Below are positions 390 through 6,064 of a stretch of DNA of 6,407 nucleotides, piece by piece. The notes beneath the pieces were generated by a model. It did no database searches. It was given only the letters and a program-made list of their open reading frames with translations, and had not been told where the DNA came from. This stretch comes from Candidatus Hydrogenedentota bacterium (GTDB lineage Bacteria > Hydrogenedentota > Hydrogenedentia > Hydrogenedentiales > CAITNO01): the NCBI GenBank assembly GCA_903922535.1, contig CAIXUF010000131.1:1-6407 (forward strand), in the 5' to 3' direction. How positions within the stretch are numbered: position 1 is the stretch's first letter; every line of letters begins with the position of its first letter. Made by a program: the position numbers and the translations under genes.

Positions 390-1805
390 ATGGCAGTGGG
401 CGAGAAGCGCGGGGGCGGCGGGGCCACCATGACCCGGAAGGAAAAGGATCGAATCTTTGCCCTTTTCGGGCGCTACATCAACAGGAACCAGATCAAGTAC
501 CTCAGTGCGGGACATCTGGACGTTTTCGAGACGCAGCGCGAGGGGGTGGGCTTCACGGACCCCTTGACGGGCAACCGCGTGTATGACTGCTTTACCGCCG
601 CGGGCTGCTTCAATGTGTCGCGCCACAATCCGGACGTGATGGCGGCGCTGGCCGAGGCGGCGGACGGGTTGGACATGGGCAGCCATCTGCTGGGTTCGCC
701 GCAGAAGGAGGAACTGGCCCGCCGCCTGACCGCGCTGGCCCCGGGCGACCTCAACCACGTGATGTTTGCGGCGGGCGGCGGCGAGGCGGTGGAATGCGCC
801 CTGAAGATGGCCCGGGGCGCGACGGGCCGCAAACAGATCATCTCCACCGTGAAGGCCTACCACGGCCACACGGGTTTCGCGCTCAGCGCCAACGGCAAGG
901 AGCATTACCGCCACTGCTTTGAACCGCTCATGCCGGAATTCACCTTTGTGCCCTTCAACGACCTCGATGCCATGACACAGGCGGTCTCGGATAAGACCGC
1001 CGCCGTCATCATCGAACCCGTGCAGGGCGAGGCGGGTATCTTTCCCGCCACGGAAAGCTACCTGCTCGGGTTGCGCGAACTGTGCGACCGGCACGGCGCC
1101 CTGCTGGTCTTCGACGAGATTCAGACGGGTTTCGGCAGGACGGGCCGCATGTTCGCCTCGGAGCATTCGGGCGTGGTCCCCGACATCATGACCGTGGCCA
1201 AATCCCTCGGCGGTGGCCTCTATGCGAACGCGGCCATGCTGTACCGAGACATTCCGCTGCTGCGGGACTTCACGGCGCGGCACCCCGATTTCCACGAGAC
1301 CCACTGCGGCGGCAGCGACATTGCCTGCAGGGTCTCGCTGAAGGTGCTCGACTATCTGGAGGAGCACAGGCTTTGCGAAAACGCGGCGCGGCAGGGCGCG
1401 CGGCTGAAGGGGGCGCTGGCGGATCTGATGCGCGCCAACCCGAAGATCATCAAGGAGGTGCGCGGCGTCGGACTGATGGTGGGTCTGGAGTACGTCGAGG
1501 AGTTCCTGGGCCCCATGATGTCCGACGCGCTGGCGAAGCACGGCGTGTTTGCCGCCTATTCGGGCAACGCGCCGCAGGTGATGCGGTTCATGGTCCCCAT
1601 CACGGTGTCGGACGCGGAGCTGGACGACATTATCACGGCGATTCAGGGCGCCGTCAAGGACATGAAGACGCTGCTGCCGGTGGCACTGCTGGCGGCGAAA
1701 ATACCGGGCGTGCTGAACCTGCTCAACAACGAGAACATCCAGACAACCCTGTTCACCCAGGTCCGAAAAGTGGAAGACTTGTGGCGTCGGATTGCGGGGA
1801 AATAA
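390..1805 (+). CDS. Class III PLP-dependent aminotransferase, lysine-bearing (AT1)
   Basis: A 471-residue cytoplasmic fold-type I enzyme of the ornithine/GABA/acetylornithine aminotransferase class, which moves an amino group between an amine or amino acid and a carbonyl using PLP. Visible core, in order: phosphate-binding turn GGGEAVECAL (129-138); PLP-stacking YHG (157-159); EPVQGEAG (209-216); FDEIQTGFGRTG (241-252) with Asp242 for the pyridine nitrogen; VAKSLGGG with Schiff-base Lys271; FHETHCGGSD (301-310); and carboxylate-binding Arg399. His305 sits where the family has the Thr reaching the partner subunit's PLP phosphate; a Thr is one residue earlier (T304). Residues ~426-471 form a C-terminal extension beyond the usual fold. 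The start is chosen from AAAGGAG at 375-381, 8 nt upstream; ATG 429 is a weaker alternative. It is first in a three-gene operon. Family is certain; the substrate is not identifiable. Confidence 0.93.
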   Translation: MAVGEKRGGGGATMTRKEKDRIFALFGRYINRNQIKYLSAGHLDVFETQREGVGFTDPLTGNRVYDCFTAAGCFNVSRHNPDVMAALAEAADGLDMGSHLLGSPQKEELARRLTALAPGDLNHVMFAAGGGEAVECALKMARGATGRKQIISTVKAYHGHTGFALSANGKEHYRHCFEPLMPEFTFVPFNDLDAMTQAVSDKTAAVIIEPVQGEAGIFPATESYLLGLRELCDRHGALLVFDEIQTGFGRTGRMFASEHSGVVPDIMTVAKSLGGGLYANAAMLYRDIPLLRDFTARHPDFHETHCGGSDIACRVSLKVLDYLEEHRLCENAARQGARLKGALADLMRANPKIIKEVRGVGLMVGLEYVEEFLGPMMSDALAKHGVFAAYSGNAPQVMRFMVPITVSDAELDDIITAIQGAVKDMKTLLPVALLAAKIPGVLNLLNNENIQTTLFTQVRKVEDLWRRIAGK

Positions 1806-1809
1806 CGGC

Positions 1810-2967
1810 ATGAATACGGCAATACTTGAGGGAAAACGCGCGGGTGCGCACTTCTTTGACACCAACGGCCGCAAGTACATCGACGGCGACAGTTCGGCGG
1901 GGATTTTCAACCTGGGCCGCAGGCACCCGGAACTGGCGGAGGAACTGAAGCGCGCCATGCGCGCCACGGACCAGGGCAATTTCCCCATCATTAGCCAGGA
2001 GAAGGCACTGCTCGCCGAGGCGCTGGCCAAGTTTGTGCCCGGCAAACTCGAATGCAGCCTGTTCGGCGTCACGCGCGGAGAGGCCTTCGACGCCGCCTGC
2101 AAGGTGGTGCGCGGATACACCGGGCGGCCCGGCCTGGTGACTGTCGACGGCGGCTGGTACGGCCAGACGGGATTTGCGCTCAGCCTGTCGCAGCGTGAAG
2201 ACAGGCACCTGTTCGAGCCGCTCGTTCCGGGCACCGCGGTCATCCCCTTCGGCGATATGGGGGCGGCGAACAGCGCCATCGGCGCGGACACGGCGGCGGT
2301 CTTCCTTGAACCGATGCAGGCCGAGAACGGATGCCGGGCGGTGAGCGCGGAGTACGCGCGGGGTCTGGCCGATCTGTGCCGTGTGCGGGGCGCGCTGCTG
2401 GTGTTCGACGAGACGCAGACCAATTTCGGCCGGACCGGCAAGCCCTTCTACTTCGAGCGGCTGGACGTGGAGCCGGACGTGCTCGTGCTGGGCGAGGCGC
2501 TCGGCGGCGGCCTGTTCCCCATCACGGTCACCATGCTGACGCAGCGGGTGAACGAGTTTATGAACGATCACCCGCTGATCCATCTGTCCACCTTTGGCGG
2601 CTCCGATGTGGGCTGCTGCGTGGCGCGGGTCGCGCTGGACATCTACCGCCGGGAGGAGCCCTGGAAGAACGCTGCGGCCATGGAGCCCAAATTGCGCTCG
2701 GCCTTTGGCGTGCTGGCGCGCGACTATCCCAGGTTGCTGTTCGGTGTGCAGGGCGCCGGCCTGCTGCTCGCGCTGCAAACGTTCTCGGCCGATGCGGCGA
2801 AAAGACTCTGTCAGGCCTGTCTGCAACACGGGCTGCTGCTGGCGCCCGGCAAGGTGGCGAAAGACACCGTGGTGGTGCGGCCGAGCCTGCTGATCACCGA
2901 GGATGAGGCGGGCGAACTCGTGGCGGCGCTGGACCTGGCGCTGCACCACTGCGCCGCCGGCGCATGA
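1810..2967 (+). CDS. Class III aminotransferase homologue lacking the PLP lysine (AT2)
   Basis: A 385-residue homologue of the preceding protein, clearly aligned through SAGIFNLGRRHPE (29-41), FDETQTNFGRTG (199-210, Asp200 kept), LGGGLFP (231-237), STFGGSDVGC (260-269) and VRPSLLIT (356-363, Arg357 kept). The residue aligned with the Schiff-base lysine, 29 positions after the conserved Asp in both proteins, is Glu229 (codon GAG 2494-2496). The phosphate turn reads TRGEA (88-92) and the PLP-stacking site WYG (116-118). Thr261, which in this class reaches across the dimer to the partner's phosphate, is kept. About 37 N-terminal residues of the upstream protein have no counterpart. ATG 1810 is preferred, with GGGGA at 1796-1800; an in-frame TTG at 1792 would overlap the previous gene by 14 bp. 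It is unlikely to transaminate alone and may be the partner or regulatory subunit of AT1. Confidence 0.9.
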   Translation: MNTAILEGKRAGAHFFDTNGRKYIDGDSSAGIFNLGRRHPELAEELKRAMRATDQGNFPIISQEKALLAEALAKFVPGKLECSLFGVTRGEAFDAACKVVRGYTGRPGLVTVDGGWYGQTGFALSLSQREDRHLFEPLVPGTAVIPFGDMGAANSAIGADTAAVFLEPMQAENGCRAVSAEYARGLADLCRVRGALLVFDETQTNFGRTGKPFYFERLDVEPDVLVLGEALGGGLFPITVTMLTQRVNEFMNDHPLIHLSTFGGSDVGCCVARVALDIYRREEPWKNAAAMEPKLRSAFGVLARDYPRLLFGVQGAGLLLALQTFSADAAKRLCQACLQHGLLLAPGKVAKDTVVVRPSLLITEDEAGELVAALDLALHHCAAGA

Positions 2968-4169
2968 AGGCGCTGTATTTCGAAAACGATCCGCTGCGCT
3001 ACGCGCTGTACCGCACGGCGCGGCTCCTGCATCCCTTTCCCCGTCTGGGCCCGCTGTCTCCGGTCCGCCATGCCGAAGTGCCCGAACCCACGCTGCCCAA
3101 TGGCCGTTGGCTCAAGGTGCGCAACATCGCCTGCGGCCTGTGCGGCACCGACATCCATTTCATGCAGATGGACATGTCGCCGAAAAGCTATTCGACCGCG
3201 TTGCCCGGGATAAAGCGCAAATACCTGGGACACGAGTGCGTGGGTGAAGTCGTCGAGGCGGGGGCGGAGGTGGAAGGATTTCGCGCCGGTGACCGCGTGG
3301 CGCTGCCCATGGACTGGCCGTGCTGTGCGCAGATGGAGATAAGTCCTCCGTGCCGACCATGCGCTGCGGGCAGTCCCATGCTTTGCGAGAACCTCGGATT
3401 GGGCACCGTGCCCGACGCCGTGGGCGGCGGCTTCTCACCGCGCATGGCGGTGCATCGCAGTCAGCTCTTCAAGGTCCCCAACGCGCTCGGCAACGATGCC
3501 GCAACGCTGCTGGAACCCATGGCCTGCGCCGCGCACGGTGTGCTGAAAGCGGCGGATTATTCTGTGCCCGGCGCGCGGGTGCTGGTCATCGGCGGCGGCA
3601 CGATCGGCCTGCTTGCCGTGGCGGCATGCCGGGTGCTTGCGCCCGGCGTCGGGGTGTTTGCCTCCGTGCGGTATCCTTTCCAGGCGAAAGTCGCCGGGGC
3701 GCTGGGCGCGCGGGTGCTGTCCGGCACCGGAAGCATTTATGCGCGGTCTGCCCGGGCCACAAATGGACGCCATATCAAGGGCATGTTTGGCAATGAGATT
3801 ATCCTGGGCGGCTTTGACGCCGTGCTGGACACGGTTGGCGGCGCGGCCAGTCTGCAGGATGCGCTGCGGCTTGCGCGGCCGGGCGGCAGGGTGGTGCTGC
3901 TGGGGATAGACTTCTCACCGGGCCGTTTGGATTACTCACCCATCTGGGCGCGCGAGGTGGAGGTGACGGGGATCAACTGTCACGGCATCGAGCGCGACGG
4001 ACGCAGCACTTTCGAGATTGCGGCGGAGGTTCTCGGGAAGACGCCCGAACTGCCGGGCCTAATCATCACGCACCGCTTTGCCATGGACGACTACAGACAG
4101 GCCCTGCGGGCGTTCATGAACAAGCGCGAATCGGGGGCGATCAAAATCGTCCTGGAGCACGGCAAATAG
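2964..4169 (+). CDS. Zinc-dependent medium-chain dehydrogenase (threonine dehydrogenase-like)
   Basis: A 401-residue cytoplasmic oxidoreductase of the alcohol / sorbitol / threonine dehydrogenase superfamily, expected to interconvert an alcohol and a carbonyl with NAD(P). The catalytic zinc site is visible as CGLCGTDIH (Cys60), GHE (His90, Glu91) and EPMACAAHG (Glu184). A structural-zinc lobe with Cys120/121, Cys130, Cys133 and Cys141 has a longer gap after its first Cys than the usual CxxCxxC pattern. The Rossmann domain opens with VLVIGGGTIG (206-215); GGFDAVLDTVGG and THRFAMDDYRQAL are typical C-terminal motifs. A longer-than-usual N-terminus (~20 extra residues) precedes the GroES-like domain. 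Its ATG overlaps the preceding stop as ATGA, and no strong ribosome-binding site is seen, so translation is probably coupled. The operon suggests it makes or uses the carbonyl substrate of the aminotransferases; that is inference. Confidence 0.92.
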   Translation: MKALYFENDPLRYALYRTARLLHPFPRLGPLSPVRHAEVPEPTLPNGRWLKVRNIACGLCGTDIHFMQMDMSPKSYSTALPGIKRKYLGHECVGEVVEAGAEVEGFRAGDRVALPMDWPCCAQMEISPPCRPCAAGSPMLCENLGLGTVPDAVGGGFSPRMAVHRSQLFKVPNALGNDAATLLEPMACAAHGVLKAADYSVPGARVLVIGGGTIGLLAVAACRVLAPGVGVFASVRYPFQAKVAGALGARVLSGTGSIYARSARATNGRHIKGMFGNEIILGGFDAVLDTVGGAASLQDALRLARPGGRVVLLGIDFSPGRLDYSPIWAREVEVTGINCHGIERDGRSTFEIAAEVLGKTPELPGLIITHRFAMDDYRQALRAFMNKRESGAIKIVLEHGK

Positions 4170-4176
4170 TTACTGA

Positions 4177-4255
4177 CTCTGCGTACCTCTGCGTCCTCCG
4201 CGTCTCTGCGTTAAATGCTTCCGAACGCCAACGCAGAGACGCGGAGGACGCAGAG
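4177..4255 (+). repeat. Perfect 26-bp inverted repeat of CTCTGCGT-type units
   Basis: The left arm 4187-4212 and right arm 4230-4255 are exact reverse complements over 26 bp, separated by a 17-nt loop. The left side is built from 8-bp units: CTCTGCGT (4177-4184), CTCTGCGT (4187-4194), CTCCGCGT (4196-4203) and CTCTGCGT (4204-4211), at steps of 10, 9 and 8 bp. The right arm contains three of these units inverted. Similar short-period repeats are known from many environmental bacterial genomes; whether they move is not shown here. Confidence 0.93.
4187..4255. terminator. Possible bidirectional terminator between convergent genes
   Basis: The 26-bp stem lies between the stop of the dehydrogenase gene (4169) and the stop of the convergent hydrolase gene (4273), so transcripts from both sides run into it. 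Neither side has a T-run after the stem, so it is not a canonical intrinsic terminator. It could still block read-through or protect 3' ends. Role inferred from position. Confidence 0.4.
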
Positions 4256-4272
4256 TGATTTCTGAGAGGGAC

Positions 4273-5505
4273 CTATTTGGCGGGCAGTTCTTCATGTTCG
4301 CTGCTCACTATCCGGTCTTTCTCATCTGTTAGGTTGATGTAGTAAACCGTCGTCCCTTCCGGAATCTCGCCCGCGGCCCGACCGGCCTTGGTGTCCAGTT
4401 TGGCGGGGACAGCCTCCCAGAGCCGGTCCTGCCATTTGCCGGTGGCCTTGGTGTAATGCAACTCGGCCTTGGTTATGGGCGTCTTCGCCGAATACGCCAC
4501 CCAGGCCGTGTTGCCGTCACGGCCCTGTTTGGTGATGGCGGCCAGCGGCGTGCCGCCGGTGAGGATGCTGTCCGCGAACGCGTGGATTTCCTCCGGGTTC
4601 TCCCCGGCGCCGCCGTGGCCGTGGGGCATGCGCGGACGAAGGGCAAGCGTGTGCGGCCCTTTCGGCAGGCGGTAGGACTTCTGCAGCGAATCCATGGGAT
4701 AGGCAAAGTCATTGGTGCCCGTCACCCACAGCATCGGCATGGACGCGCGCGGCAGGTAGACCGACGGGTCCCACAAGCCCAGCCACTTGGCGGACTTTTC
4801 CGCGCCCATCGCTTCGAAATCCTTAAGCCAAGCCGAATTTTCGCCGAGGAATCCGCAGCCGTAGACCGGCACGGCGAGTTTGAACCGGTCATCGACGCCG
4901 GCGGTGATGCACGTCAGATAGCCGCCCCAGGAAATGCCCGTGATGCCGGTGCGCGACCCGTCCACTTCGGGAAACGAGCAAATCAGCGAGTGCCCAAGCA
5001 CCACGTCGGCCACGGCGTGATAGGACCACTGGTCGGTGGTGGGCGCATCGACATGTTCGAAATCGCCCCAGCCGCCGGGACCGCCCTGCGCGTCGCGCTC
5101 CCAGTGGCCGTAGGTGCCGCGCGGCACGCAGCCGCAGGTGTCCATCGCAATGGCGGCGTAGCCGCGGCTGTTCCACAGGCGCACCCACACGGCAAAGGCC
5201 GTGCCGCCGCCGCCGTGTACCAGCACCATGGCGGGCACCTTCTTTCCCGGCTCCGTTTTGGGCAGGCCGTACCACGCGAACACACGTGTCGGCGCGTCCT
5301 TGTACGGCACACCGTCATAGAACAGCGCGGAGACGCCCTCCTCGGAGAACCCCTCCGCGGGTGCGCTCTTGGGCGTCTGGGAGAGCGCCTGCATATCCCA
5401 GGGCATCGCGGCGGGCTCAACCGCGGGCGCCAACGCGCACAGCATAAGAAATGCGGGAAGAACCACGGCGAATGTTGCATGGGACAAGCTGTCTCGCTCA
5501 GTCAT
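4273..5505 (-). CDS. Secreted alpha/beta hydrolase, acetyl-xylan-esterase / S9-like
   Basis: A 410-residue exported serine hydrolase. The first ~33 residues look like a signal peptide: polar start MTERDSLSHA, hydrophobic TFAVVLPAFLMLCAL, then small residues. The catalytic domain shows oxyanion motif HGGGG (97-101), nucleophile elbow GISWGG with Ser192, acid Asp266 in TGTNDFAYP, and a His in MPHGHGG (295 or 297). Residues ~316-410 form a separate, probably beta-sandwich domain (AELHYTKATGKW, TTVYYINLTD). Such proteins in environmental bacteria are usually labelled acetylxylan esterase, dienelactone hydrolase or prolyl oligopeptidase family; the exact ester or peptide substrate is unknown. Several Cys (124, 126, 176, 199, 217) could form disulfides outside the cytoplasm. 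The start was chosen because AAAGG lies 8 nt upstream and the signal peptide begins there; the frame is open 35 codons further upstream without signal-like sequence. It converges on the aminotransferase operon. Confidence 0.88.
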   Translation of the reverse strand: MTERDSLSHATFAVVLPAFLMLCALAPAVEPAAMPWDMQALSQTPKSAPAEGFSEEGVSALFYDGVPYKDAPTRVFAWYGLPKTEPGKKVPAMVLVHGGGGTAFAVWVRLWNSRGYAAIAMDTCGCVPRGTYGHWERDAQGGPGGWGDFEHVDAPTTDQWSYHAVADVVLGHSLICSFPEVDGSRTGITGISWGGYLTCITAGVDDRFKLAVPVYGCGFLGENSAWLKDFEAMGAEKSAKWLGLWDPSVYLPRASMPMLWVTGTNDFAYPMDSLQKSYRLPKGPHTLALRPRMPHGHGGAGENPEEIHAFADSILTGGTPLAAITKQGRDGNTAWVAYSAKTPITKAELHYTKATGKWQDRLWEAVPAKLDTKAGRAAGEIPEGTTVYYINLTDEKDRIVSSEHEELPAK

Positions 5506-5511
5506 GTGAAG

Positions 5512-5523
5512 AACCTTTCGGTT
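5512..5523 (-). promoter_or_regulatory. GNRA-loop hairpin over the hydrolase ribosome-binding site
   Basis: In the mRNA sense this reads AACC-GAAA-GGTT: a 4-bp stem closed by a GAAA tetraloop. The AAAGG ribosome-binding site, 8 nt before the ATG, lies in the loop and 3' stem. A second hairpin, GCGGG-AAGAA-CCCGC, lies upstream at 5539-5553. The stems are short, so any regulatory effect is speculative. Confidence 0.4.
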
Positions 5524-5591
5524 GGTGTGTCGCAATGTGCGGGTTCTTCCCGCAATGTTCGCTGGCAGTCTCGGGGCGGTCGCGGCAGGTG

Positions 5592-5620
5592 AATACACAG
5601 ACCAATTCATGCTGTCTCAA
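5592..5620 (-). promoter_or_regulatory. Candidate sigma70-type promoter for the hydrolase gene
   Basis: On the minus strand, TTGAGA (5615-5620, 5 of 6) and TGTATT (5592-5597, 4 of 6) are separated by exactly 17 bp. The predicted leader is about 80 nt and would include both small hairpins upstream of the start codon. No other evidence supports it. Confidence 0.38.
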
Positions 5621-5774: not shown

Positions 5775-5900
5775 AACCACGGAACGCACGGATCGACACG
5801 CAAAAAGACACAAGAGAAATGAACCTGTATTTACAGGAGAAGTGTGCAATCCGGTGTGTCGCTCCAATTCCTCTGTGTTCCTCTGTGGCCTCTGTGGTTC
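5775..5900 (+). repeat. Degenerate periodic inverted element (AACCAC...CCTCTGTGGTT type)
   Basis: The right part is a tandem of TTCCTCTGTG (5868-5877), the same unit at 5878-5887, and GCCTCTGTG (5888-5896), ending GTT. The left part (from 5775, AACCACGGAACGCACGG onward to ~5811) resembles a degraded reverse complement. The exact palindrome CCTGTA-TT-TACAGG sits between them at 5824-5837. Its minus-strand translation gives NHRGHRGTQRN, a typical peptide produced by such repeats and not evidence of a gene. The right-hand tandem is clear; the pairing of the two halves is weaker. Confidence 0.7.
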
Positions 5901-6064
5901 AAATTCGGAACGCAAACAACAGTGACGATTGGCCAGTAGAGAAGTTTCTGCGGAAACGAATAGAGTTGCCGGACAGCCGCATGAACATGACCAGGCATCT
6001 TGACAAACTTGAAGTCTGTTGGTGGTGGGTGAAAAGGACCAGCTTGGAGGATCAAAAGTATCCA

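Follow-up and report, generated by a model that had tools for sequence, protein, structure and literature searches.

Adjacent class III aminotransferase genes with complementary active-site losses probably encode an obligate heterodimer

Why would two neighboring genes each encode a class III aminotransferase fold when each protein lacks an active-site residue that the other has kept? This question is raised by a 6,407-nucleotide stretch of DNA from a Candidatus Hydrogenedentota bacterium, the whole of which was analyzed and is referred to here as the window. On its plus strand, an open reading frame at 390..1805 (AT1, 471 amino acids) encodes a class III aminotransferase subunit with the lysine that binds pyridoxal phosphate (PLP) and without the partner-facing threonine. 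It is followed on the same strand by AT2 (1810..2967 from an ATG, with a TTG at 1792 as another possible start), encoding a subunit of the same fold that lacks the PLP lysine and keeps the partner-facing threonine. The original prediction placed the two genes 4 bp apart, and exactly 4 bases do separate the stop codon of AT1 from the ATG of AT2, a spacing that suggests equal production of the two proteins.

Both proteins are class III members by profile. AT1 scores 303.5 bits against Pfam Aminotran_3 (PF00202), above the curated cut-off of 30.5, and AT2, at 207.7 bits, is assigned to class III by its profile match and its fold. AT1 also has a second, weak match to Aminotran_1_2 (21 bits), which AT2 lacks. 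Neither protein reached the cut-off of an NCBIfam class III family (putrescine, acetylornithine, ornithine and GABA aminotransferases) among the 25 families listed of 70 and 69, where the best scores were 302.9 for AT1 and 218.1 for AT2, each against a cut-off of 612. Judged from its sequence, AT2 is a member of the aminotransferase family by descent and would not be an aminotransferase by itself, because its PLP lysine is absent.

The residues concerned were located by alignment to the E. coli putrescine aminotransferase YgjG, whose PLP residues, according to the available part of its published description, are Lys300 and Thr332*, the latter contributed by the other subunit (PMC4244111). In the HMMER alignment, the AT1 lysine (K271, codon 1200..1202) and the AT2 glutamate (E229, codon 2494..2496) both fall on the YgjG lysine, and the AT1 histidine (H305, codon 1302..1304) and the AT2 threonine (T261, codon 2590..2592) both fall on the threonine preceding the YgjG FGG. 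The sequence and this alignment confirm the complementary losses that had been proposed, with residues and numbering correct: AT1 has the lysine and no threonine, and AT2 has the threonine and no lysine.

Conservation was examined in the best 120 of 6351 AT1 matches and the best 120 of 4541 AT2 matches, the latter including the window's own AT2 as P0001. Two profiles were used for searching, A1 for AT2 and A2 for AT1; A2 has 119 rows, consisting of the window and 118 of the 120 AT1 matches, with the over-long P0150 and P0156 omitted from the profile and included in the residue counts over 120 AT1 matches. Among the best 120 AT1 matches, lysine occupies the K271 column in 120/120, and AT1's own phosphate cup, G129-G131 (774..782), is nearly invariant (G130 and G131 120/120, G129 119/120). 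Position 305 ranks 7th in variability among the 386 AT1 positions examined, and in the joint alignment of the same 120 matches it is Y in 42, H in 19, S and T in 12 each, V in 8, F in 5, A and I in 4 each, L, W and C in 3 each, P in 2, M in 1 and a gap in 2. Unlike position 305, which they flank, H302, G307 and G308 hardly vary. When AT1 genes were read from DNA, lysine was present in 28/28 loci and threonine at position 305 in 0/28, the residue there being Y in 7, H in 6, I in 5, S in 4, F in 3 and W, L and V in one each. The proposed change to His305 therefore stands as a loss of threonine, but histidine is not the conserved residue; the column is nearly free, and this, on the evidence of the alignment, is a stronger fact than the histidine itself. 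Similarly, co-conservation of K271 and T261 with the two losses is complete in the 28 AT1 and 29 AT2 loci read, but only nearly so in the matches, since 12 of the 120 AT1 matches keep threonine. These 12 threonines, together with the 12 serines, mean that the loss is not universal in the wider matches, and they count against an obligate heterodimer.

Position 304 of AT1 also counts against a heterodimer. It is threonine in 59 and serine in 59 of the 120 listed matches (118/120 Ser/Thr), and a residue of this kind might bind the phosphate if AT1 formed a homodimer. AT1 would then be an active homodimer in which Ser/Thr304 replaces the trans threonine, and AT2 would be an independent protein with no catalytic role, such as a regulator or a sensor of some ligand, which its intact predicted fold would also allow. 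We consider this reading improbable, on account of AT2's own conservation, the variability of the same loop in AT1 and the distribution of the two genes, as described below.

In AT2, Glu229, Thr261 and Phe262 are each present in 120/120 of the best matches. A phosphate-cup glycine is replaced by Arg89 (2074..2076), this column being Arg in 120/120 of the best AT2 matches versus Gly in 120/120 of the best AT1 matches. The DNA-read loci agree, with the glutamate, threonine and arginine each found in 29/29. The fixed Thr261 and Phe262, which by homology serve a lysine-bearing partner, speak against an AT1 homodimer. The predicted AT2 structure is an intact fold (model numbering is that used here plus one, as the modeled stretch starts one codon before the ATG). 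In one genome, G546, the profile match of AT2 (L097 9432-10793) stops at position 317 of 410, while in BLAST the protein aligns up to AT2 residue 374; its C-terminal part may be divergent.

The pocket of AT2 is itself conserved. The Asp, Gln and switch Glu of AT2's own site are each retained in 120/120 listed matches, a degree of conservation that a simply dead pocket would not require and that counts against the simplest form of the heterodimer model. A variant compatible with heterodimer formation holds that the AT2 pocket catalyzes a different reaction or accommodates a ligand, either regulatory or resembling a substrate. The three retained residues and the fixed Glu229 and Arg89 favor this variant, as a merely dead pocket should drift, but it points to no particular ligand or chemistry, and the fixed arginine and glutamate could simply plug the pocket through a salt bridge. 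We regard the variant as possible, at rather less than even odds. In the same tentative vein, a widespread class III group may have turned into obligate heterodimers by complementary loss, after which the AT2 pocket (Glu229, Arg89, Asp200, Gln203 and Glu172) was recruited as a selected ligand-binding or regulatory site.

Variability in AT1 and AT2 was also compared over 378 shared columns. When columns were ranked by being conserved in AT2 but variable in AT1, the trans threonine column (305/261) came first and the adjacent column (306/262) third of 378. The freeing of this loop in AT1 is a further argument against an AT1 homodimer that relies on Ser/Thr304. In CvTA, T321, Y322 and N118 are given as contacts from the other monomer in the available portion of PMC6255834, and the first two of these align with columns 305/261 and 306/262. 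The N118 column is Val in 120/120 AT2 matches and Ala in 84 and Ser in 34 AT1 matches, so the third trans contact, as described for CvTA in that portion, is not kept in AT2, and this counts against the heterodimer model. The 12 columns of the phosphate-covering loop, with hinges as given in the accessible part of PMC3606037, are shifted together (Mann-Whitney p 1.6e-5), and 5 of them are among the top 20 (p 1.5e-4); these p values serve as guides only because the family sequences are related.

A second cluster, AT1 98-107 and AT2 57-66, contributes six of the top 14 columns in the scan. The AT2 residues of this cluster (1978..2007, plus strand) form a loop that is conserved in AT2 but varies freely in AT1, and it may act in trans; its counterpart in omega-transaminases presumably also reaches the partner site. 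The available parts of PMC6065307, PMC6813460 and PMC12029284 contained nothing usable on partner-side loops. One apparent fixed difference, AT1 M401 versus AT2 R357, was discounted, because the carboxylate Arg has probably been displaced in the alignment.

If the two proteins depend on each other, their genes should be found together, and AT1 orthologs without AT2 would argue for an AT1 that acts alone. AT1 without AT2 was sought in three phyla only, comprising 597 genomes, of which the two larger phyla were sampled as even draws (282 and 247 genomes); in many genomes, only part of the first-look candidates was scored. Within this set, 26 genomes had AT1 and 27 had AT2, the latter being present in 26/26 AT1 genomes. 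Both genes occurred in the same nine of 68 genomes of Hydrogenedentes (the phylum of G003) and in the same fourteen of 247 genomes of Spirochaetes (the phylum of G004), one of the latter with two pairs; in the phylum of G005, AT1 was found in 3/282 and AT2 in 4/282 genomes. For Spirochaetes, counting required at least 504 bits for AT2 and at least 668 for AT1, and the next lower scores (422 with the AT2 profile, 517 with the AT1 profile) belonged to lysine-bearing singletons. About 200 bases separate the start of the sole unpaired AT2, in G317, from the end of its 5,400-base contig. The co-occurrence check proposed with the original prediction thus came out in its favor, as AT1 commonly lacking AT2 was not seen in these three phyla, and the lack of any AT1 without AT2 among the 26 genomes is evidence against an independent AT1 homodimer.

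Gene order is equally constant. Wherever one piece carries both genes (27/27 loci), they share a strand and AT1 comes first. A start codon for AT2 is available between -4 and +29 bases from the AT1 stop in 27/27, and a 4-base overlap is possible in 13/27. A TAG lies between AT1 and AT2 in L102 (Spirochaetota). In G002 the two genes are on two contigs, one of which ends at AT1. G393 has a pair on each of two contigs (L105 and L107), and these two AT1-AT2 pairs are different.

Single-gene relatives that bear the lysine were compared as well. Thirty such singletons from the same three phyla have the lysine in 30/30 and the threonine in 27/30, the exceptions being L040, L046 and L080. Serine is the usual residue at the 304-equivalent in these singletons too, so the retention of Ser/Thr304 in AT1 needs no new role. 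A tree was built from 29 AT1, 28 AT2 and the 30 singletons, using the window and every fourth match from the eleventh after filtering by length; singletons were chosen non-randomly, by score bands. AT1 formed one group with 100/100 support and AT2 likewise formed one group with 100/100 support. The terminal branches of AT2 are on the whole longer than those of AT1, which, together with the lost lysine, might be taken to mean that AT2 is a decaying, functionless copy. Conservation rules this out: 41 columns are invariant across 120 listed AT2 sequences, down to 48% identity with the window, and AT2 has been kept beside AT1 in three phyla.

AT1 also carries a conserved C-terminal helical extension (1677..1802, plus strand). 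Full-length AT1 proteins from Spirochaetota match the AT1 profile to 461-470, whereas lysine-bearing singletons stop at 424-427, with one at 448. The extension might contact AT2, a membrane or a lipid substrate.

Taken together, we propose with a probability of about 0.88 that AT1 and AT2 form an obligate heterodimeric class III aminotransferase with one live site, made of the AT1 lysine and the AT2 threonine, and one dead site. This model is supported because the Lys/Thr split is conserved, AT1 and AT2 co-occur and adjoin, their predicted folds are intact and each protein forms a single group in the tree. From these sequence data we infer the physical heterodimer, its activity, the plugging of the AT2 pocket and the evolutionary order of events. 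The dimer would have the architecture of other class III enzymes. PLP would be held in the AT1 site on K271, AT1 also supplying D242, Y157 and the GGG cup, and the partner-side loop of AT2, carrying T261 (and F262), would close over the PLP phosphate of AT1. AT2's own PLP site would be dead, having Glu in place of Lys, Arg in place of a phosphate-binding Gly, and a partner loop from AT1 that lacks the threonine; Arg89 and Glu229 would pair up and plug the pocket. The two genes would have arisen from lysine-bearing ancestors, with each copy losing what the other retained.

The surrounding genes, which vary from group to group, offer some hints about function. The gene after AT2 encodes a zinc-type medium-chain dehydrogenase (2964..4169, plus strand, from Pfam and NCBIfam profile matches), with a 4-base overlap between its start and the AT2 stop. 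A relative of this dehydrogenase is found in 12 of the 28 loci compared (the window, L001, L003, L047, L048, L050-L055 and L094), being the next gene after AT2 in seven of them and seen as a match in the other five, and it may belong to the same pathway as AT1 and AT2. In several Spirochaetota, alanine dehydrogenase-type genes identified by Pfam and curated profiles lie directly before AT1 on its strand (L103 7259-8344, L104 1403-2566, L106 9725-10831). Those in L103 (519.1 bits) and L106 (515.1 bits) exceed the curated cut-off of 391.85, and the protein in the same place in L104 has the same two Pfam domains. A similar gene in L105 is on the opposite strand and nearer to transhydrogenase subunit alpha, at 369 bits versus a cut-off of 383 and thus below it. 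Because alanine dehydrogenase-type genes precede AT1, an alanine/pyruvate amino couple is plausible in that Spirochaetota lineage, and a dehydrogenase partner for the pair is plausible in other lineages.

Other features were noted around the pair. In ten loci (L098-L107), the opposite strand carries a TetR-type gene close to the pair, an assignment checked with Pfam in L098 and L103. In the window, an alpha/beta hydrolase of the acetyl xylan esterase/prolyl oligopeptidase kind is encoded on the minus strand at 4276-5610, and a relative with 87% identity lies near the L003 cluster. Repeats of 'ctctgcgt' and 'cctctgtg' units were seen by eye at about 4170-4260 and 5870-5910, the former being an inverted repeat between two convergent genes.

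If the heterodimer model is true, AT1 and AT2 would show cleanly, in nature, how two copies of an enzyme come to depend on each other when each loses the opposite half of an active site, and lysine-bearing single-gene relatives still exist for comparison. How a homomer becomes an obligate heteromer could then be tested directly on two predicted class III chains. There is also a consequence for annotation, as the names on AT2 relatives ('aspartate aminotransferase family protein', 'putrescine aminotransferase') label a subunit that has no lysine for PLP.

We found no description of a class III aminotransferase heterodimer in listings and abstracts of the open-licence literature or in the available parts of PMC9309667 and PMC9081730; a literature match to 'obligate heterodimer' (PMC12731848) concerned GABA-B receptors. 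One parallel is serine palmitoyltransferase, whose LCB1 and LCB2 form a heterodimer of related PLP-enzyme subunits, one without the PLP lysine; the working hypothesis in the accessible part of PMC3794620 is that there is a single active site. As in the predicted physical pairing of AT1 with AT2, a lysine-less partner is joined to a lysine-bearing one. The likeness is in working principle only, since the human enzyme is membrane-bound and differs in family and reaction, and a swap of lysine and phosphate-binding threonine is not described for LCB1/LCB2 in that part of PMC3794620. AT1 and AT2 are not of the serine palmitoyltransferase family, as Aminotran_3 is the best family for both. The two-subunit P-protein of glycine decarboxylase is another PLP enzyme in which one of two related subunits carries the lysine, again with a reaction and family other than those of AT1 and AT2. 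Closer in descent are the class III relatives, which include ornithine and acetylornithine aminotransferase as well as YgjG (4uox) and CvTA. In the available parts of their descriptions, the latter two are dimers of one polypeptide that carries both the lysine and the trans threonine, whereas AT1 and AT2 divide both residues between two.
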